The notes under the pieces were generated by a model, which worked only from the letters and a program-made list of their open reading frames with translations, ran no database searches and was not told the DNA's origin. Of a DNA stretch of 23,964 nt, positions 9,301 through 23,964 are shown piece by piece. Source of the stretch: a virus; the IMG/VR virus record IMGVR_UViG_3300005582_000102, positions 1 to 23,964 of that record. One strand, given 5' to 3'. How positions within the stretch are numbered: the stretch's first letter is position 1; every line of letters begins with the position of its first letter. The position numbers and the translations under genes are program-made.

Positions 9301-10059
9301 TTATTTTAGACTTAATTGTTGATCTTTTAGGCTTTTTTCATAGTTATTCATTTTATCTAGGTATCCCCTATTCCTAAGTTCTTTAAATACGAGATTCTCG
9401 AAGCTAAACTCTCCACCCTTGGCAATGGCAGATGCTCTCATCTCAGCTATCTTTGACTTTAGGTCCTTTATAGTGGTCGGTCCCATCTTATTCTTGATAA
9501 TATTATCTATCAAGTGAACATAGTATATGACCTTCCTCTTCAACTCTGGGTCTGTTTTAAAGTTGAAGTTTCCGTGAATCGGTTTTTGTAGCCACTCTCC
9601 CCGTTTAAGACTGTAGACACCTTGTCCACTGGCATAACTGTCTGTAGAGTCCTGTGCGTATGGTTCAATTGGATATCCAAGGATAGTAATCTTGTGCGTG
9701 AGAGTCCATAGGATTTTCTTAGCTTGAAGATACTCATCTATAAATCCTCTATTCGCGTTTAATTTATTTCTATCCACTACTATATGGACGTCGATGTCAG
9801 ACTTTGAAGTATAGTTGTAATTTGTATTGCCACCTACCATTATGATATCTTGTATCAATTTTGAAGGTATCTTCGCAAAATCGGCCCATGCATTAGCAAA
9901 GTCTAGTAACTTCGATCTAACATCAGGTCTAAGATTCCACCCATTCCATAACTTCGAATTGAGTTCTGTGTGATAGTCTAAGCTTATCTTTGTTTCATTG
10001 AGTGGCAGTCCGCGCTCTTCACGGACCACCTTCTTCATTGTTTTTAATGTTGATTTCAT
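9301..10059 (-). CDS. Nucleotidyltransferase-fold protein
   Basis: A 252-residue protein with the pol-beta nucleotidyltransferase signature: GGN at 76-78 and SDIDVHIVVD with Asp88 and Asp90, the hG[GS]...DhD pattern for two metal-binding aspartates. A third carboxylate might be in GYPIEPY (after residue 125), not certain. The family joins NMP groups to RNA, proteins or small molecules; the substrate is not deducible. Similar proteins are found in cyanophages. The rest, with a basic helical C-terminus, is not recognised. GAGGG stands eight bases before the ATG, behind the tRNA gene and a possible late box. Confidence 0.8.
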   Translation of the reverse strand: MKSTLKTMKKVVREERGLPLNETKISLDYHTELNSKLWNGWNLRPDVRSKLLDFANAWADFAKIPSKLIQDIIMVGGNTNYNYTSKSDIDVHIVVDRNKLNANRGFIDEYLQAKKILWTLTHKITILGYPIEPYAQDSTDSYASGQGVYSLKRGEWLQKPIHGNFNFKTDPELKRKVIYYVHLIDNIIKNKMGPTTIKDLKSKIAEMRASAIAKGGEFSFENLVFKELRNRGYLDKMNNYEKSLKDQQLSLK

Positions 10060-10094: not shown

Positions 10095-10182
10095 TGGCGG
10101 AAAGTGAGAGATTCGAACTCTCGGTAGGTTTCCCTACGTCTCGTTAGCAGTGAGGTGCCTTAAGCCGCTCGGCCAACTTTCC
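10095..10182 (-). tRNA. tRNA-Ser (anticodon GCU)
   Basis: An 88-base class II tRNA. Acceptor GGAAAGT pairs with ACTTTCC, followed by discriminator G and an encoded CCA; the T arm is GAGAG-TTCGAAT-CTCTC; the D arm GCC...GGC; the long variable arm GTAGG-GAAA-CCTAC is typical of serine. The loop CTGCTAA gives anticodon GCU, reading AGC and AGU. The anticodon stem is weak: only its three middle pairs are Watson-Crick, with C-A at 27:43 and A-C at 31:39. It probably supports translation of AGY serine codons, frequent in these AT-richer genes. Confidence 0.93.
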
Positions 10183-11089: not shown

Positions 11090-11503
11090 TCACTCCTTTG
11101 GTATATGACTCTTATGTACCTTTACCATAATCCACATATTATAGTATTCTGTATTGGTTAAAACATTATTATCGAACTGGTGTTTAGCCTCGTAATAGTT
11201 GCACTCTCCTTTTGTTTTGCAGAGTCTTATAATCTCTCTCTTAAAATTAAAAAATCCTATATTAGCTACGTCTTCCAGCAGTTCCTTATTCGATCCATAG
11301 TAGTCCTTCCAATCCGACTCAACTAGTGATCTCTTCTTTTTCCCCTTAACTTGTCTAGTCTTGGTTCTCTTTAGCAGCTTCTTACCTATATATTTCTTGT
11401 TATCTATAAGATTGGTAATGACGTAGACGAATCCCAGATAATTTTCCAGTATTTCCGAGTCTACTATATTATTGCTGAACGTCCATGGATTCTCGTAACT
11501 CAT
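11090..11503 (-). CDS. GIY-YIG family endonuclease-like protein, 137 aa
   Basis: GFVYVITN (24-31) and KYIGKK (37-42) are the two strands of a GIY-YIG nuclease core, with a basic block (KRTKTRQVKGKKKR) and SDWKDYYGSN (63-72), a conserved part of phage versions. Glu105 in YYEAKHQF could be the metal-binding glutamate. Related phage genes are often labelled homing endonuclease-like, but no intron or DNA-binding extension is visible, so a repair or DNA-processing role is as likely. The gene overlaps the phosphoesterase gene by 35 bases, with only a weak GTGGA before ATG. Confidence 0.75.
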   Translation of the reverse strand: MSYENPWTFSNNIVDSEILENYLGFVYVITNLIDNKKYIGKKLLKRTKTRQVKGKKKRSLVESDWKDYYGSNKELLEDVANIGFFNFKREIIRLCKTKGECNYYEAKHQFDNNVLTNTEYYNMWIMVKVHKSHIPKE

Positions 11504-12486: not shown

Positions 12487-13308
12487 TTATTCCTTACACT
12501 GCTTTTTCTTATCATCCGCGTAAGTTTTCGATAGGATGATAGGGAATTGATTTTTGTTTGTTTTGGTGTCAGGAACTGGAAATTTATATCCAGATAGTAT
12601 TTCTATAGAATTAACCGTTGTCTGATAGTGTAGAATATTAGATATTAGTCCATCCTTATGAGGCATCATAAATGCATATGAAGTCTTAGTAGTATTGTCT
12701 ATTAGAATCTTATACAAATATTGAGGAACAATTACCTTGTCACTTCCAATTGTCTTGCCACCGAGAGTATATATGTTTCCCGCATATATCGTATATGCGT
12801 GCTTTGTCTGATGCACTAGAGCTCTAGTAGCTTCTTCCAATTCCTTCCACACACCTCTATTGACAGAAGGAAGTTGTGGACTCATATTTGACATAATGAA
12901 ACTTTCTCTCATTACGTCTTCATTCCACGACATATCAGCATTATTAGCTAAATGACCTTGATCGTATCCAGATCCGGCATAATCGCTAGGAGTAGAGCGT
13001 TGATCTATTGGAAGAGAAGCATCAGCGGCGAATGAATCTTTTCTAGGTAAGCATCCAATTGCATGTTCTGGTATTAGTGTCCATGCAACCCACCTAGGAA
13101 TCTTTGCTATTGGATCGTGTTCTAGTATGTAAGCTTTACGACAGATATATGTAGGATTCTTATCCAATGTTTTTGGAATTCCAAGTGGCACCTGCTGAAT
13201 GCAGGCTGCAACCGGATAAGGAGGTGTCTGGTCTATGGCATAAGCTATAGATCCGAAAGCGCCTAAAATAAATACTATGCTATAGCGTAAAACCTTTAAA
13301 TGATTCAT
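12487..13308 (-). CDS. Exported DNA/RNA non-specific endonuclease (NUC1 type)
   Basis: A 273-residue nuclease with an N-terminal export signal: KVLRY, a hydrophobic core SIVFILGAFGSIAYA and a probable cut after AYA at 24. The beta-beta-alpha-metal core reads YDQGHLANNADM (Asp116 to His119), then NRGVWKELEEATR with Asn150, Glu158 and Arg162 at the spacing of the Serratia enzyme (Asn119, Glu127, Arg131). The usual DRGH is DQGH here. Four cysteines (36, 56, 86, 271) could form disulfides outside the cytoplasm. It should degrade DNA and RNA in the periplasm or medium. AAGGA eight bases before the ATG supports this start, inside the end of nrdB. Confidence 0.86.
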   Translation of the reverse strand: MNHLKVLRYSIVFILGAFGSIAYAIDQTPPYPVAACIQQVPLGIPKTLDKNPTYICRKAYILEHDPIAKIPRWVAWTLIPEHAIGCLPRKDSFAADASLPIDQRSTPSDYAGSGYDQGHLANNADMSWNEDVMRESFIMSNMSPQLPSVNRGVWKELEEATRALVHQTKHAYTIYAGNIYTLGGKTIGSDKVIVPQYLYKILIDNTTKTSYAFMMPHKDGLISNILHYQTTVNSIEILSGYKFPVPDTKTNKNQFPIILSKTYADDKKKQCKE

Positions 13309-14593: not shown

Positions 14594-14784
14594 TTATTAA
14601 ACCGCTCCACTAGTGCAATTCTAGATTCCCTATTGTATTGATTTTCTAGTATCAAAATAGCCTTTCTAAGCATGCCTATTGCTAGTAGAACAACATCATC
14701 TGCGTTGTCTGACATCATTATCGCGGTTTCAACTGGCAACATCATCTTCGCTATCTTAATTTCCAGCTTTTCTTTGTCTGTCAT
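14590..14784 (-). CDS. Hypothetical helical protein, 64 aa
   Basis: A short, probably all-helical protein (KLEIKIAKMMLPVETAIMMS, then LLAIGMLRKAILILENQYN). No family recognised. Its ATG overlaps the nrdA stop (ATGA) and its own stop overlaps the next ATG, so expression is tied to nrdA. The location within the nrd operon may mean a helper role in nucleotide metabolism, which is inference only. Confidence 0.66.
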   Translation of the reverse strand: MTDKEKLEIKIAKMMLPVETAIMMSDNADDVVLLAIGMLRKAILILENQYNRESRIALVERFNK

Positions 14785-17075
14785 ATCTTACAACTTTCAC
14801 AGTCCTCATCATCTATTGCACCTAATGCTAGTTCTTGATGAACATCGATTTCACCAGCACCATCGTTTGTATTGAAGTAGTACAGCTGCTTTCCTCCATA
14901 CTTATAGAACATTAGGAGGTGTTGCAGCATAGTAGACATAGGAATTTGCTCTTCTTTGTAAAATTTTGGATTATAGGAAGTATTTACTGAAATTCCTTGA
15001 TCAATAAACTTTTGGAGGACAGACACGATCTTAATGTATCCTTCTGGAGAAACCTGGGACCAAAGTAAATCGTACTTATTCTTAAGGCGCCTGACTTCTG
15101 GGACGACTTGCTTGAGAACGCCGTCCTTACTTTGCTTAACAGAGACGAGACTCCGAGGAGGTTCAATGCCGTTTGTCGAGTTTGAAATCTGAGCGGAGGT
15201 TTCCGCTGGCATGAGTGCCATGAGAGTGGAGTTTCTAATTCCATAATGCTTAGCCCTTTCTCGAAGAATATCCCAATCCAATTTATAGTTAGGTGCTACT
15301 AGCTCGTCTACTTCTTTTTTATAGGTGTCGATCGGCATGATACCTTGGGAGTACTTAGTCTCGTTAGACTTGGAAGGAGCTCCTGTTTCAGCCGCCCTGT
15401 CGATAGAGGCTTTAATGAGATAGTAAGACCAAGCTTCGGTATATTCATGCAGTTTATCTAGTCCTTCACTGTCTATATTTTGATAATCGAGATCATTGCG
15501 AGCTAGCCAGTATGCGAGATTAATGATGCCTACGCCGAGAGGTCGACGAGCCATAGTAGAGTTTTTTGCTGCTAGCACAGGATAATCTTGGTAGTCGAGA
15601 AGCTCGTCTAGTGCTCGAACGATGAGGGTGCACGGTCGCTCGAAGTCTGATGGATCCTTTATCTTACCCCAATTAATAGCAGCTAGAGTGCACAGAGATA
15701 TTTCACCATTTGGATCATTTAAGTCGGATAGCGGCTTAGTAGGAAGAGTAATCTCTGTGCATAGATTACTCATGCGAATTGGTGCTAGTTCTTTAATGAA
15801 AGAGCCATGATCATTTGCGTGATCAACATTCTGCAGGTATATGCGCCCGGTATCCTTACGCTCTTGCATAAATGCAGAGAATAATTCAGTAGCAGATATT
15901 ACTTTCTTTCTAATCTTAGTAGATCGCTCATACTTTTCGTATAATTCTCTAAATTTGTCGACGTCAATGAAGAACGCATCGTAGAGGTCAGGTACATCAC
16001 TAGGACTAAAAAGAGTAATATTACCGCCTTGAAGAAGACGCTCATACATGACTTTATTAAACTGTACCCCGTAGTCGAGATGTCTGACACGATTATCCTC
16101 CGTTCCCTTGTTATTTTTTAGTACGAGTAGGTCTTCTACTTCCAGATGCCACACTGGATAGTAAAGAGTAGCAGCGCCACCTCGTACACCTCCTTGGCTG
16201 CAGCTCTTAACTGCTGACTGAAAGTGCTTATAGAACGGTATAACGCCAGTATGAGACGCATCGCCACTACGAATAGGACTGCCGACAGCGCGAATACGAC
16301 CGGCACCAATGCCAATACCAGCTTTTTGGGAAACGTACTTAACAATGGCTGAAGCTGTTGCATTAATGGAGTCCAGCGAATCTTCTGTTTCAATAAGAAC
16401 ACACGAAGAGAATTGCTTCTGAGGAGTACGAAGACCCGCCATGATCGGAGTAGGGAGCGATATCTCAAAGCTAGATGTTGAATCATAAAATTCTCTCACC
16501 CATTTAAGTCTGTCTTCCTTATAATTACGAAATAGTACCATGCCAATAAGCATGTAAGCCATCTGAGGAGTCTCGTAGTACTTACCGGTAACTCTGTTTT
16601 TTACCAGATACTTACCCCTAAGCTGTTCCATGCCAGCATATGTAAGAGTGAAATCTCGCTTATGGTCAATATACCCATTAAGTAGTCCAAGGTCTGCTGG
16701 TCCGTACCATGATAGGATCTCAGAGTCGTAATATCCTGCATCAACAACAGATCTAATATGAGTAACAAGATCAGATGGATTGAAATTTCCATAAACTTCT
16801 TTTCTTAAGTTATAATTGATAAGTCTACCAGCAACATACTGATAATTAGGAGCATCCTCGCTTATGAGGTCTGCAGCTGCCTTGATGAGTGTTTCCTGTA
16901 TATTCTGAGTCTTAATTCCGCTATAGAATTGTATCGAAGAATTGATCTCGATCTGCGACTCAGAAACACCGGTAATCCCGTCGCAAGCCCATGCTACTAC
17001 CTTGTGAAATTTATTAAGATCTAGTACTTCCTTAGTACCATCTCTCTTCGTTACCGTCGTAGCACTCGCTATCAT
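14781..17075 (-). CDS. nrdA: Ribonucleotide reductase class Ia, large subunit
   Basis: A 764-residue alpha subunit that reduces ribonucleoside diphosphates. Catalytic Cys225, Asn437, Cys439, Glu441 and Cys462 fall at the Escherichia coli numbers; the paired tyrosines of the radical path are in KQLYYFN near the end. The N-terminal VTKRDGTKEVLDLNKFHKVV is an ATP-cone, so allosteric on/off control may be kept. The C-terminal redox pair is CESC (759 and 762), a CxxC instead of the CX4C of Escherichia coli. AGGAG lies eight bases before the ATG, and a TGTAC promoter serves this gene and the run to nrdB. Confidence 0.97.
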   Translation of the reverse strand: MIASATTVTKRDGTKEVLDLNKFHKVVAWACDGITGVSESQIEINSSIQFYSGIKTQNIQETLIKAAADLISEDAPNYQYVAGRLINYNLRKEVYGNFNPSDLVTHIRSVVDAGYYDSEILSWYGPADLGLLNGYIDHKRDFTLTYAGMEQLRGKYLVKNRVTGKYYETPQMAYMLIGMVLFRNYKEDRLKWVREFYDSTSSFEISLPTPIMAGLRTPQKQFSSCVLIETEDSLDSINATASAIVKYVSQKAGIGIGAGRIRAVGSPIRSGDASHTGVIPFYKHFQSAVKSCSQGGVRGGAATLYYPVWHLEVEDLLVLKNNKGTEDNRVRHLDYGVQFNKVMYERLLQGGNITLFSPSDVPDLYDAFFIDVDKFRELYEKYERSTKIRKKVISATELFSAFMQERKDTGRIYLQNVDHANDHGSFIKELAPIRMSNLCTEITLPTKPLSDLNDPNGEISLCTLAAINWGKIKDPSDFERPCTLIVRALDELLDYQDYPVLAAKNSTMARRPLGVGIINLAYWLARNDLDYQNIDSEGLDKLHEYTEAWSYYLIKASIDRAAETGAPSKSNETKYSQGIMPIDTYKKEVDELVAPNYKLDWDILRERAKHYGIRNSTLMALMPAETSAQISNSTNGIEPPRSLVSVKQSKDGVLKQVVPEVRRLKNKYDLLWSQVSPEGYIKIVSVLQKFIDQGISVNTSYNPKFYKEEQIPMSTMLQHLLMFYKYGGKQLYYFNTNDGAGEIDVHQELALGAIDDEDCESCKI

Positions 17076-17097
17076 TTATTAGCTCCTTTATTATTAT

Positions 17098-17124
17098 AGT
17101 ATATTATATTTTTAATTAAGTACA
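17098..17124 (-). promoter_or_regulatory. Phage promoter, TGTAC-N16-TATACT, for nrdA
   Basis: TGTACTTAATT matches the cassette promoters exactly; TATACTATAATAAT follows after 16 bases, so a hexamer at 18 bases reads TACTAT. The TGTAC begins a few bases after the thyX stop. The very AT-rich -10 region suggests a strong promoter for the nrd genes. Confidence 0.65.
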
Positions 17125-17129
17125 TTAAA

Positions 17130-17795
17130 TTATTCGGTAACTATGTTTAGGCTATCCCTTAGCGATGGAAACTCGGTTGTTATTTGGTACCATGCGTCCC
17201 TCGCTACTTCTCTATGCTCCTTCTGCGTGCCAATACCCATGCGTAGCTCACAATAGTGCACCCAACTTCTAAGAGAACCAGTCATATAAAGACGGGAACA
17301 AGTAAGACCTTCTGGAAGAACTGCACGAGCTTGTTCTTTCGCAATACCATTGTCAATCGCCCAAGAATATACATGCTTAGCCTGTACTATTAGGTGTGAT
17401 TGTTTAAATTGCCATTCTGTCTCTAGTTTCTTATCATCTGTTTCTATAGAGTTCTGCCTATTCTTGTTATCTTGTAAACGTGCTTTACGAGTTTCGAAGC
17501 CCATGTCTGCTGTTGGATCAGCATATCGCTGACTGAATTCTTGAAAAGAGAAAGAGCGGTGCCTAAGAATCTGGCGAGCGATATCCCGCGTTGTATTGAT
17601 TTCCATGACTATGTGCACCATCTCAAACGGAGACCAGTGCTTGTGCTTCATTAAGTATTTTAGCAACCTCTGCGAAGTGTCTTTATTATTTTGATTTAAT
17701 GGATTAGACACCCTAGCTACATATGCAACAAAGTCATCTACACTCATCGTAGAATCAATGGGCCTCGTCACTGCAATTATCTTAGAACTATTCAT
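17130..17795 (-). CDS. thyX: Flavin-dependent thymidylate synthase
   Basis: A 221-residue ThyX that makes dTMP from dUMP with FAD, NADPH and methylene-tetrahydrofolate. The signature RHRx7S is present as RHRSFSFQEFS (78-88). The fold pattern HKHWSPFEMVHIVMEI (51-66) and AVLPEGLTCSRLYMTGSLRS further on are also typical. It forms a unit with primase (ATGA overlap) and lies upstream of nrdA, so thymidylate and deoxynucleotide supply are adjacent. Confidence 0.96.
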   Translation of the reverse strand: MNSSKIIAVTRPIDSTMSVDDFVAYVARVSNPLNQNNKDTSQRLLKYLMKHKHWSPFEMVHIVMEINTTRDIARQILRHRSFSFQEFSQRYADPTADMGFETRKARLQDNKNRQNSIETDDKKLETEWQFKQSHLIVQAKHVYSWAIDNGIAKEQARAVLPEGLTCSRLYMTGSLRSWVHYCELRMGIGTQKEHREVARDAWYQITTEFPSLRDSLNIVTE

Positions 17796-18817
17796 ATTTT
17801 ACTCCATGATGTGAGGGCCATCTTCGCTGCTAAATCTTTGTAAGTGTTCTGATCAACTATATATCTTATAAATTCCGAACTCAGGCCAGCTTTTATCATA
17901 TCATTAACATCTTTGTGCTGCATACTATCTGGCCATATGCAGCAGTTAAACCCATTCATTATCGCACGATCAATCTTTTTTACAGTATCCTTAGATCTTG
18001 GCTCGTTGTCGTACACAATGACTGCATTCTTTTTGAGATGACTAGGCAGAACGGATATAATATCACCGCCAGCACTAGCGATACTATTAGGCACAAACAT
18101 GCTATCGATAGGACCTTCAAAAACATAAAACTTATTGTCGTAGTTGACTGTGTCGAGTCCATATATCTTTTCTACGCTGTCGTCCGTTACTATGGTTATA
18201 TACTTTAGGCTACTCTTAGGATCCAAACTCCTTCCCTGCAGAGCATGAATTTTCTTTTCTTTATTGATAAATGGTATCAGTAGTCGAGTTTCGTCCCTCT
18301 TCAAAGATTCCTCAGAGAATTTATTAGGTATGACACCATTTATATATGCATAGAAATTGGGACACAGGAATAGCTTGGCGTGATACGGGTTAGGTATCTG
18401 CCGACTAACTACGTACTTCTTAATTGGATGATCTGGAGATAGCTGACTTACCTTCTTCAGGCCTTTAAGGATTCCCTCTGTCTGAAATACTGGCTTCTTC
18501 ATCTTGTTGACGAAGTTCTCGAGGTCTATCTGCTCAGGAGTCTTGTTATTCTGGAGTTTTTCCATGTTGTACTCATTGTACAACTGCTGATCGATCATCT
18601 TAATGAAATTAGGGACACCCATTGATACACTGCAATTGAAGCAGTGAAACATACTTTTTCCCTGATTCTCATATATCCAAGCTCGAGCCTTATACTTGTT
18701 AGTGGCCGAGTCCCCGCATACAGGGCAACGGAAGTTGAATTTTCCTGATGATTTCCTAGTAAATCTATCCAATCGACCAGATAACAGACTTACGTACTTT
18801 TGTTCTAGCCAATTCAT
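17792..18817 (-). CDS. 61: DNA primase, T4 gp61 type
   Basis: A 341-residue primase that makes RNA primers for lagging-strand synthesis together with a helicase. The N-terminal zinc site is CPVC (31-34) with FHCFNC (57-62), followed by a linker and a TOPRIM domain: YVFEGPIDS (231-239, Glu234), VIVYDNE (266-272, Asp270) and QHKDVNDMI (300-308). The size equals that of T4 gp61 (342). GGAG lies eight bases before the ATG, and the gene has its own promoter. The stop overlaps thyX. The partner helicase (gp41) is not in the window. Confidence 0.92.
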   Translation of the reverse strand: MNWLEQKYVSLLSGRLDRFTRKSSGKFNFRCPVCGDSATNKYKARAWIYENQGKSMFHCFNCSVSMGVPNFIKMIDQQLYNEYNMEKLQNNKTPEQIDLENFVNKMKKPVFQTEGILKGLKKVSQLSPDHPIKKYVVSRQIPNPYHAKLFLCPNFYAYINGVIPNKFSEESLKRDETRLLIPFINKEKKIHALQGRSLDPKSSLKYITIVTDDSVEKIYGLDTVNYDNKFYVFEGPIDSMFVPNSIASAGGDIISVLPSHLKKNAVIVYDNEPRSKDTVKKIDRAIMNGFNCCIWPDSMQHKDVNDMIKAGLSSEFIRYIVDQNTYKDLAAKMALTSWSKI

Positions 18818-19284: not shown

Positions 19285-19427
19285 ACTGGAATCTTTCTCT
19301 TGATCATAGGAGTTATATCCCTGAGTTTCTTTTTTTTCTTTCCCAGTAAGGGATCATAGGTGTCTATCGCCCCAGTGCTCGGAGTAGAGCTCGATGATCC
19401 CATTGAATTTGTCGCAATATCTGACAT
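19281..19427 (-). CDS. Small Ser/Thr-rich then basic protein, 48 aa
   Basis: A complete 48-codon gene: MSDIATNSMGSSSSTPSTGA, then IDTYDPLLGKKKKKLRDITP and a basic end. The evidence is AAGGA seven bases before the ATG, a TAATG overlap with the upstream gene and an ATGA overlap with the downstream gene; it fills the gap exactly. A flexible serine-rich head and a lysine-rich tail suggest an adaptor or a virion/membrane-associated peptide, but nothing specific is recognised. Confidence 0.72.
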   Translation of the reverse strand: MSDIATNSMGSSSSTPSTGAIDTYDPLLGKKKKKLRDITPMIKRKIPV

Positions 19428-19819
19428 TAAACTTTCCTTAAAGCTGCTACTATATTTTCATCCATCGTTATCATTGTCAAGTCTATAACTTTTTCATCTT
19501 TAATGTCATATATCTTTTCAGGCAATGCATTTAATAGTAATAAAAATGGCTTAACGTATTTAAAATGTGACTTCATCTTCATGTATAGTATCCTGGAGAG
19601 GTGATCAGGTGAAAATACATTATGTAATATAATAATATGATTTAATATTAGTCTATCTTTAAGGTCACCGCTATCGATATATCTAGTTATTAGCTTCTTG
19701 ATATATCTAATTCGCTTTAAGTCTTCAATGAACTCCTCTGTGGAGTAGCACTGCGGATTATCATAGTGTCTTGCACAGTAGATTAGAAAATTATCCTCAC
19801 TTAGTTTCTCGAACTTCAT
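19427..19819 (-). CDS. Conserved T4-like phage protein, 130 aa
   Basis: FLIYCARHYDNPQCYSTEEF, DLKRIRYIKKLITRYIDSGD and LKDRLILNHIIILHNVFSP are recognisable as a highly conserved family of small proteins in T4-like cyanophages and relatives, of unknown function, always near structural genes. It is all-helical by appearance. The ATG lies one base past the previous stop, with no clear ribosome site, so it relies on coupling. The end overlaps the 48-residue gene. Confidence 0.75.
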   Translation of the reverse strand: MKFEKLSEDNFLIYCARHYDNPQCYSTEEFIEDLKRIRYIKKLITRYIDSGDLKDRLILNHIIILHNVFSPDHLSRILYMKMKSHFKYVKPFLLLLNALPEKIYDIKDEKVIDLTMITMDENIVAALRKV

Positions 19820-22842: not shown

Positions 22843-23964
22843 TTATTCTACAGTGTTTAATATAGCTTCAATGCGTGCGATCTCAGCATCAGAGAACTCA
22901 ACTTCTTCATTAGTAGCAGGAACTTTAGCTGAAGCAATACCGCCAGTACTACCCCAACGTTTTTTGCCGGCTAGAAATCTCATTTTTTCTCTTTTTTCAG
23001 GCTCTTCTACACCTCGATCTACCAGACGTCTAGTTTTATCAGAGTATCTTTGCAAGATGCCGGTGCGACTAAGCTCATCGATCCGCTCGGCTTCTTCTTT
23101 GGTTGTTTTAACACGTTCACCTTTAGAATTCATTCTAACACCTTTTTTCCAATCTTCTTTAGAAATTCCTTTAGATCCATGAATTTCATGGTGTGCATAC
23201 CAACCATCATCTTCTTCGTTTAATGCTTTCGATGCTGCTAATGCAGCAGCTGCATACTTCTCAGGATCCTTTGCAGCCATACCATGTAGATCGGCTGCCT
23301 TACGAATCTTTTCTCTCATCTTTGAAGGAATATTGTGACCGGCTGCTTTATTAATAAGCTCTGATCTTTCTTTTTTATGATCGACTTCTTCTTCAAAATT
23401 TTGCTTACTTATTTCTTTTTCTGTTTGATTGGGGCCAACAGCAACAACTCTGTGACCAATAGGTCTTTTTATTGATACCTTTGCCATCTCTGCCTTACGA
23501 GCCTTTTCACCACGGATCATAGCACCCACACGTTCTGGTCCAAACTTAGAAGCTTTTTTAAAATTATCTATCGAACCTAGAGCTTCATCGATTTCTGCTT
23601 CTTCATTGGTTTTCTTTACACTATCATATCCCTTAAAGAACTGACGTTGAGCTTCTTCTTTGCCAGAACGCATACCAAAATGTGGACCATATTGACGAAG
23701 ATGGCCAGATTTTGCAGCAAGGTCGCCAGCTTCGTGATGTTTTCCTTTAGATTTCAAATTGTTAACTTCACGATGAGAATTGGCTTCATCGAGTTCTACT
23801 TCTTCTTTCATAGCCGGTTTTGCATTACGATAACCTATAGGATCAGCCTTTAAACGATGATCTTTTTCTTTTTTCATTTCGTCCTTGGTATAACTGCCGT
23901 GTGGTACACCAGTATTAATATGCCACTTAAGACGACCGTCAGACATTTTTGAAATTGCTTCATC
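22843..23964 (-). CDS. Repeat-bearing putative internal head protein (partial)
   Basis: The frame is open to the window edge (DEAISK precedes the first in-window Met), so the true start lies outside. Counted from that Met, a motif recurs: KEEVELDEA (48-55), NEEAEIDEA (114-122), ALNEED (241-246), KEEAERIDEL (283-292) and NEEVEF (346-351). LDE-A, IDE-A and IDE-L fit the (L/I)xE cleavage rule of the T4 prohead protease gp21. Segments between are basic and mostly helical. This suggests a scaffold or internal capsid protein cut during head maturation; the identification is inference. Confidence 0.6.
   Translation of the reverse strand, partial: DEAISKMSDGRLKWHINTGVPHGSYTKDEMKKEKDHRLKADPIGYRNAKPAMKEEVELDEANSHREVNNLKSKGKHHEAGDLAAKSGHLRQYGPHFGMRSGKEEAQRQFFKGYDSVKKTNEEAEIDEALGSIDNFKKASKFGPERVGAMIRGEKARKAEMAKVSIKRPIGHRVVAVGPNQTEKEISKQNFEEEVDHKKERSELINKAAGHNIPSKMREKIRKAADLHGMAAKDPEKYAAAALAASKALNEEDDGWYAHHEIHGSKGISKEDWKKGVRMNSKGERVKTTKEEAERIDELSRTGILQRYSDKTRRLVDRGVEEPEKREKMRFLAGKKRWGSTGGIASAKVPATNEEVEFSDAEIARIEAILNTVE

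Follow-up and report, generated by a model that had tools for sequence, protein, structure and literature searches.

A phage protein that seems to string together many small, largely basic modules, with nearly the same putative cut signal between them

At one edge of the window, i.e., the whole 23,964-nucleotide stretch analysed here (IMG/VR record IMGVR_UViG_3300005582_000102, positions 1 to 23,964), lies a minus-strand gene fragment whose product can be read, with a probability of roughly 60%, as the C-terminal third of an internal-head polyprotein that is built of modules and cut by gp21 in the prohead of a T4-like phage. The bacterial virus seems to encode in one chain many small modules, most of them basic, each set off from the next by almost the same cutting signal. 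In the proposed course of events, the 1009-residue chain and its relatives with a T4-like targeting start would enter the prohead core, where a serine protease of the gp21 type, activated in the prohead, would cut after EE-x-E-(x)-[LI]DE to leave about eight mostly basic pieces sharing the head with the DNA; by analogy with the T4 internal proteins, these pieces may be injected. As a single precursor chain would carry them all, many different payloads would be loaded in equal number. We infer the cleavage, location and payload function of the polyprotein, the presence of a gp21 in the phage of the window, and the retention and injection of the pieces.

The open reading frame at 22843-23964 is translated from 23964 to 22843 into 373 residues followed by a stop; its start is missing, with the 5' end outside the window and the frame open at the window edge. 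This fragment is identical in three IMG/VR contigs (L002, L003 and L004), of which L002 (50,435 bases) holds the entire gene (L002:4093-7122) for a 1009-residue protein beginning MENKFKSL, the 373 residues being its C-terminal part. The preliminary description had taken the protein to be 367 residues long, a count that starts at an internal methionine and not at the true start, and the full copy corrects this. Reading inward from the window edge on the minus strand, the frame opens with DE, the final two residues of a site EEVELDE|A that the edge splits (23959..23964). There follow a cassette of 58 residues including its terminal site (AISKMSDGRLKW..., 23785..23958), with a relative in L007 at 62% identity over 71 residues, closed by EEVELDE|A (residues 54-60, 23785..23805); a cassette of 67 residues (ANSHREVNNLKS..., 23584..23784), whose relatives in L005 (81% identity) and L006 (79%) have different neighbours, closed by EEAEIDE|A (residues 121-127, 23584..23604); a cassette of 170 residues with a computed pI of 9.5 (ALGSIDNFKKAS..., 23074..23583), closed by EEAERIDE|L (residues 290-297, 23074..23097); and the C-terminal cassette (LSRTGILQRYSDK...SDAEIARIEAILNTVE, 22846..23073), a C-terminus that recurs in L240. 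The 170-residue cassette may hold extra cuts beyond the counting rule (LNE|E, EEEVDHKK).

Database searches place little of this chain among known families. PHROGs and Pfam gave no match to the 373-residue fragment, and no Pfam domain, peptidase domain or prohead PHROG match was found in the 1009-residue protein, of which residues 26-102 match positions 442-518 of the 698 in phrog_26930 as a single segment (E 4.3e-18). Against named phages, tblastn returned just one 54-residue match to the fragment, in Rhizobium phage RHph_TM16, where a stretch about 50% identical to the ANSHREV cassette (23584..23784) occurs as a stand-alone 111-residue gene product; at E 1e-3 neither the full protein nor the corresponding protein of L036 had any match. 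The AlphaFold models were of low confidence (pLDDT 56 and 68), too poor to base a search for similar folds on.

The recurrence of the cut-site motif is far beyond what composition provides. EE.E.?[LI]DE is found three times in the fragment against a mean of 0.001 in residue shuffles, none of 20,000 of which reach three, and [LI]DE three times against a mean of 0.25 (38 of 20,000 reaching three); the full protein has five and eight of them, respectively, and 0 of 20,000 shuffles reach either count. A looser rule, which asks for [LIVM][DN]E and two or more acidic residues among the preceding seven, gives seven sites in the full protein, four of them touching the window. The repeated motif singled out in the preliminary description is thus confirmed, as are its individual sites: LDE-A, IDE-A and IDE-L, placed at 52-55, 119-122 and 289-292 in the count from the internal methionine, are the sites ending at residues 60, 127 and 297, and the DE-A noticed at the window edge is the end of an EEVELDE|A that lies after residue 638 of the full protein. 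For a product this rich in E, D and K, one might suppose that acidity and low complexity alone made the motif recur by chance, but the shuffles and the same role of the motif in many phages make this scarcely credible.

What recurs is more than the T4 rule, on which the earlier reading had been founded. According to the accessible part of a published account, T4 gp21 cuts after L/I-X-E (PMC9026906), and the sites do fit this; bare [LI]xE, on the other hand, is not enriched over shuffles, either in the fragment (4 against 4.4 expected) or in the full protein (13 against 9.4), so that what stands out is the longer acidic stretch and not (L/I)xE alone. The sites are real, yet the T4 rule alone would never have picked them out. 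The P1' residue is Leu at 57 and Ala at 53 of 239 sites among the matches listed; the T4 junctions examined all have Ala there (gp23 FLTE|A; IPII and IPIII IAE|A).

The pieces that such cuts would release are basic in their bodies. With the last 10 residues removed, the segment bodies of the 1009-residue protein have computed pI values of 9.1-9.9, the kind of product known from T4-type internal proteins; with the acidic tails the values are 6.0-9.5. Because a cut after Glu would leave the acidic tail on each piece, the computed charge is near-neutral to basic, and the basic peptides foreseen at the outset can be retained for the bodies but must be softened for the pieces with tails. The same division of charge is seen among the matches listed, wherein 297 cassette bodies from 72 non-gp22 proteins have a median net charge of +6 (86.5% positive) and the 10 residues preceding the cut a median of -4.

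A DNA scan for EEVEQLDE returned at least 120 stretches, and 80 loci were examined. The motif lies inside an open reading frame in 76 of these, with two or more motifs in 35 (among the matches listed); the non-redundant proteins with at least two sites number 88 among the matches listed, 16 of them gp22-like. The segments between the sites recur with different neighbours. For example, cluster C (LSxxTLxSYxxKA) comprises 15 cassettes from 12 proteins, flanked by 13 different neighbours on the left and 12 on the right (among the matches listed), and two segments that adjoin in L006 (89% and 84% identity) are separated in the window protein by about 275 residues. These clusters come from segments with trimmed ends, with cluster A still partly chained; single-linkage clustering with untrimmed ends was dropped, since the motif itself was aligned and a single cluster of 245 resulted. 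A recognizable domain, HicA_toxin (PF07927), occurs as a cassette above the Pfam cut-off in all five proteins tested (L253, L225, L181, L185 and L227).

With the motif masked, 81 of 318 alignments of one protein with another (among the matches listed) have their start at a site in each of the two, against a mean of 2.7 and a maximum of 11 in 500 trials with random positions; random masks by themselves attract few alignment starts (0-4 of 400-502), and without masking 287 of 644 alignments begin close to a site, compared with a mean of 12. Judged by these comparisons, the repeated site is the seam where cassettes are exchanged between genes, for homology resumes right after it, as is expected of a seam as opposed to a bound epitope. 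This bears directly on the idea that EExxLDE is never cut and instead serves as a docking repeat that binds gp22, gp20 or the shell, repeated for avidity. A conserved stretch longer than a gp21 site requires, the lack of enrichment of the bare (L/I)xE and the frequent Leu and Ile at P1' all agree with docking; nevertheless, the conserved part ends at the Glu after L/I-x, exactly as in the T4 rule given in the consulted part of PMC9026906, homology restarts directly past the site, and relatives adjoin the protease, all of which make docking an improbable explanation.

The relatives occupy a telling place in T4-like genomes. Portal scans gave 160 rows, and 166 loci with 1959 open reading frames contain 17 frames with at least three EE.{2,4}[LIV][DN]E, of which 15 are repeat-site proteins and two gp22 scaffolds. 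In L005 and L007 such proteins lie directly behind a T4-type portal (PF07230), and in L036, L037, L038, L068 and L074 the repeat-site protein lies between the portal and a gp21-type protease, as detected by an HMM seeded with AAY80_016 of Stenotrophomonas phage DLP6; gp22- and gp23-like frames come next after the protease in L036 and L068. A gp21-type protease follows in order in 81 of 162 portal loci, or 62 after removal of 19 duplicates. The most sites per protein in these 62 non-redundant gp20-gp21 intervals is none in 16, one in 20, two in 11, three in six and four or more in nine; i.e., at least one site is present in 46, at least two in 26 and at least three in 15. The corresponding T4 interval holds gp67 (annotated in T4 as "precursor to internal peptides") and gp68. 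In DLP6, a gene between portal and protease annotated as a holin (AAY80_013, L009:9162-9419) has a start like that of a targeted protein, and with this position and start the holin label is probably wrong.

It is from this interval that the main rival explanation arises, namely that the protein is a prohead core filler like gp67, gp68 and gp22, whose gp21-cut pieces leave or stop filling the head, being discarded with no function after assembly. Apart from the shared gp67/gp68 interval, it can draw on the first repeat protein of L005 (462 residues), which opens on a prohead segment like that of gp67 (phrog_1064, E 0.002) and is also similar to a 53-residue DLP6 gene product, and on gp22 of phages with repeat-site proteins, which carries LDE sites too. 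A filler need not, however, be built of cassettes that include recognizable folded domains such as HicA_toxin, nor of cassettes that are mostly basic and exchanged as units, and the window gene itself is away from the head block; on balance, we consider the filler unlikely, if less so than docking, and prefer the internal-head polyprotein.

The N-termini of relatives and of neighbouring gene products are in keeping with delivery into the prohead. Many proteins of the gp20-gp21 interval begin MKSFK(x)hhSE|V or similarly (e.g., MKSFKQIISE|I, MKSFKKFVTE|V), and these starts resemble those of T4 IPII and IPIII (MKTYQEFIAE|A; IPI begins MKTFKEF). The first ten residues of IPIII are enough for targeting, as stated in the available portion of PMC9026906. 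Relatives in L036, L068 and L007 and neighbour genes in L002 match the targeting pattern. The 1009-residue protein itself (MENKFKSLSSVFREM...KVIDE|S) gives no match to the short targeting pattern, and its first candidate cut is at residue 30. In the 50-kb contig, three of 75 frames have [FYL]..F[LIMV].E close to their beginning, against 0.24 expected (2 of 2000 shuffles reach three): a DUF6267-cytidylyltransferase, a DUF6321 protein and a 213-residue protein, all upstream of the repeat gene and two of them only about two genes away.

Comparable signals accompany virion proteins in the phage S-CREM2. The pattern [FYL]..F[LIMV].E, chosen after part of the data had been inspected, is found in five of 26 virion-detected and one of 142 undetected proteins (p 3.4e-4) among the 168 CDS of three genome stretches, in which 26 of the 52 published detections fall. 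On a partial list, the strict targeting pattern did not separate the two sets (2 of 26 detected, 2 of 78 undetected, p 0.26), and any [LIVM]xE ending at residue 5-20 occurred in 12 of 26 and 17 of 78, respectively (p 0.02). The virion-detected S-CREM2 products ORF6, 12, 13 and 14 (L301), comprising a SAM hydrolase, a Cas9-like nuclease, an APH-like kinase and ORF13, have ends FDSFLEE, FASFMAE, LHSFLTE and FDAFLTE; such T4-IP-like ends suggest packaged internal proteins. Similar N-termini make the products of three genes, including those with DUF6321 and DUF6267-cytidylyltransferase, candidate internal head proteins (L002:2459-2746 and L002:2734-3375, both GFKEFISE|; L011:16643-18595, FKTFLVE|). 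A family in L180, L189, L208, L219, L237 and L252 that starts MRDQEIhGLYE|AY or nearly so, with LDE sites and a recurring segment "HLhxEGYADT...IMxNMSEEWR", looks from its sequence like another family of targeted internal proteins.

The window gene resides elsewhere, near primase and NrdA and outside the head block, so the gp20-gp21 location characteristic of gp67 and gp68 does not apply to it. The genes for NrdA, a ThyX-like protein and DNA primase (14781..18817, minus strand) are its neighbours, placing the repeat protein in a conserved slot between cytidylyltransferase and primase-NrdA, which also holds a 1006-residue protein in P-TIM68, a 682-residue one in Cr30 and the 297-residue ORF160 in S-CREM2. 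L002 has frames of the size expected for T4-type DNA polymerase, primase, RNR and recombinase, and its list of frames shows no head genes. A search for the PF03420 protease was negative in all seven records with the protein or its close relatives, all of which are fragments; this absence of gp21 is uninformative, as the contigs are pieces of T4-like phages lacking the head block. The portal model likewise gave no match in the 50-kb contig, in a run that matched no record, although the model fits the portals of both L005 and L007. In contigs that the motif alone brought up (among the matches listed), the PF03420 protease is present in 8 of the 16 tested and in six of the seven that reach at least 100 kb; the eight without gp21 are also without a T4 portal match.

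With its gene among primase, NrdA and ThyX, outside the head block, and with no TATAAATA late promoter directly before it (L002 has three such words against 1.4 expected, a count that 35 of 200 shuffles reach and hence no excess), the product might be regarded as a non-virion multidomain protein acting in the infected cell, its linkers being mere flexible joints. What makes this a very remote prospect is that S-CREM2 products from the same slot are in virions: mass spectrometry, in the accessible text of the report, detected ORF154 (the cytidylyltransferase), ORF155, ORF156 and ORF160 there and not ORF157-159 (PMC10665884). Similarly, a cytidylyltransferase or NMNAT is reported in the virions of S-SM1 and S-SCSM1 in the parts of those papers available (PMC3037559, PMC9602691), and the two close upstream genes have T4-like targeting N-termini. 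ORF154, with the N-terminus MKNFSSFLTE|A, is 37% identical to the cytidylyltransferase domain of the 50-kb contig, and the nucleotidyltransferase-like protein at 9301..10059 (minus strand), in which LNE|T among the early residues fits a cut site, is 49% identical to ORF156, a likeness to a virion-detected protein that indicates that the region carries virion-type genes. The undetected ORF159 is 37% identical to the product of window 19427-19819.

For ORF160, the consulted part of the same report gives seven peptides and 13.1% coverage, which places it in virions and has no bearing on its cleavage or place therein (PMC10665884). Two of its segments, adjacent in ORF160, recur in the P-TIM68 protein at 64% and 80% identity, there in reversed order and about 370 residues apart, and the second begins exactly after ISE|. 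A DUF6321 in these two proteins, assumed at first, was refuted when the domains were re-checked. A direct comparison of the window protein with ORF160 gave no match at E 1e-3, and the 1009-residue and P-TIM68 1006-residue proteins are marginally similar (31.6 bits); L007 has one cassette in common with the window protein and a different one in common with P-TIM68. The virion evidence therefore reaches the window protein through gene position and through cassettes in third proteins. As a separate observation, an N-terminal stretch of ORF160 (GFTGAAAPEGPVAGYDPLM; L300:16343-17236) resembles the mature N-arm of the S-CREM2 major capsid protein (GFTGAAAPGGPNAGFDPVM), and it is possible, going by this resemblance, that the N-arm is mimicked for incorporation.

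Other features of the window may be recorded here. A 76-nt repeat with the core TATTATTAGTATATCAAGC is present in four copies (701-776, 1269-1344, 1602-1677 and 1994-2069) with 67-89% identity to the reference; three of them lie 17-24 bases upstream of small minus-strand frames, and the repeat is perhaps an early promoter or leader. A DNA/RNA non-specific endonuclease (PF01223, E 6.6e-39) is encoded at 12487-13308 on the minus strand, and its signal-peptide-like N-terminus suggests a periplasmic or secreted nuclease. A tRNA-Ser (GCT) at 10095-10182 (minus strand) is close to a SegE-type GIY-YIG endonuclease gene at 11090-11503 (minus strand).

A broader generalization, which we put forward tentatively and with more doubt than conviction, is that T4-like phages possess a payload-loading platform made of a targeting end and interchangeable cassettes between prohead-protease sites. 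Effectors, including HicA-type RNase-like and EF-hand-like modules, could then be added, dropped and reordered with the loading machinery untouched, and each virion would bring equal numbers of many small proteins into the cell. If this is true, sense can be made of the large "hypothetical" proteins found in many aquatic T4-like phages: cut sites would show in advance the N-termini of peptides in virions and would divide these proteins into testable modules, some with known folds (HicA). It would also explain the equal-dose loading of many different internal proteins and allow injected effectors to be listed from metagenomes by a sequence rule.

In the literature searched, to which subscription papers, preprints and supplementary files did not belong, no description of exchangeable cassettes delimited by gp21 sites was found. 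The protein is placed in none of the families of T4 internal proteins, gp67/gp68 or polyvalent proteins, because their defining features are not established for it; nonetheless, each offers a parallel. The T4 proteins gp67, gp68 and gp22 are, in the sources as far as available, cut into several fragments by gp21, and the gp20-gp21 place is common to them and the relatives described here; in contrast, gp67 (80 residues) and gp68 (141 residues) are without EExxLDE repeats and are not built of exchangeable cassettes. In the giant phages phiKZ and SPN3US, a gp21-related prohead protease recognizes a short motif in many head proteins, which it cuts after Glu, and propeptides carry several protease sites. 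As far as the partial sources go, those sites lie within propeptides and not between interchangeable cassettes. The protein of phrog_5709 (Caulobacter phage Cr30 AGS80949.1), of "Unknown function" in PHROGs and with no interpretation met with in the literature searched, shares with the present relatives the LSxxTLxSYxxKA cassette behind LDE sites and with the window gene the slot next to cytidylyltransferase and primase-ThyX-NrdA, and differs in its set of cassettes. The nearest published idea, in the accessible text of PMC5512222, is that of the polyvalent proteins of phages and conjugative elements, which are multidomain and mosaic and are proposed to be packaged, cut and injected, much as is proposed here; they are said to be freed by an embedded peptidase (MPTase), whereas here none was found and the proposed cutter is a separate prohead protease. 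Finally, the T4 internal proteins IPI, IPII, IPIII and Alt, as described in the parts of the sources available, are small and basic, are packaged into the prohead core and begin with a targeting sequence, about 10-19 residues long, that ends in (L/I)xE; they are separate single-payload genes with one cut each, whereas the present protein has up to eight segments and a repeated acidic site. By analogy, then, the repeat protein would work like a chain of T4 internal proteins.
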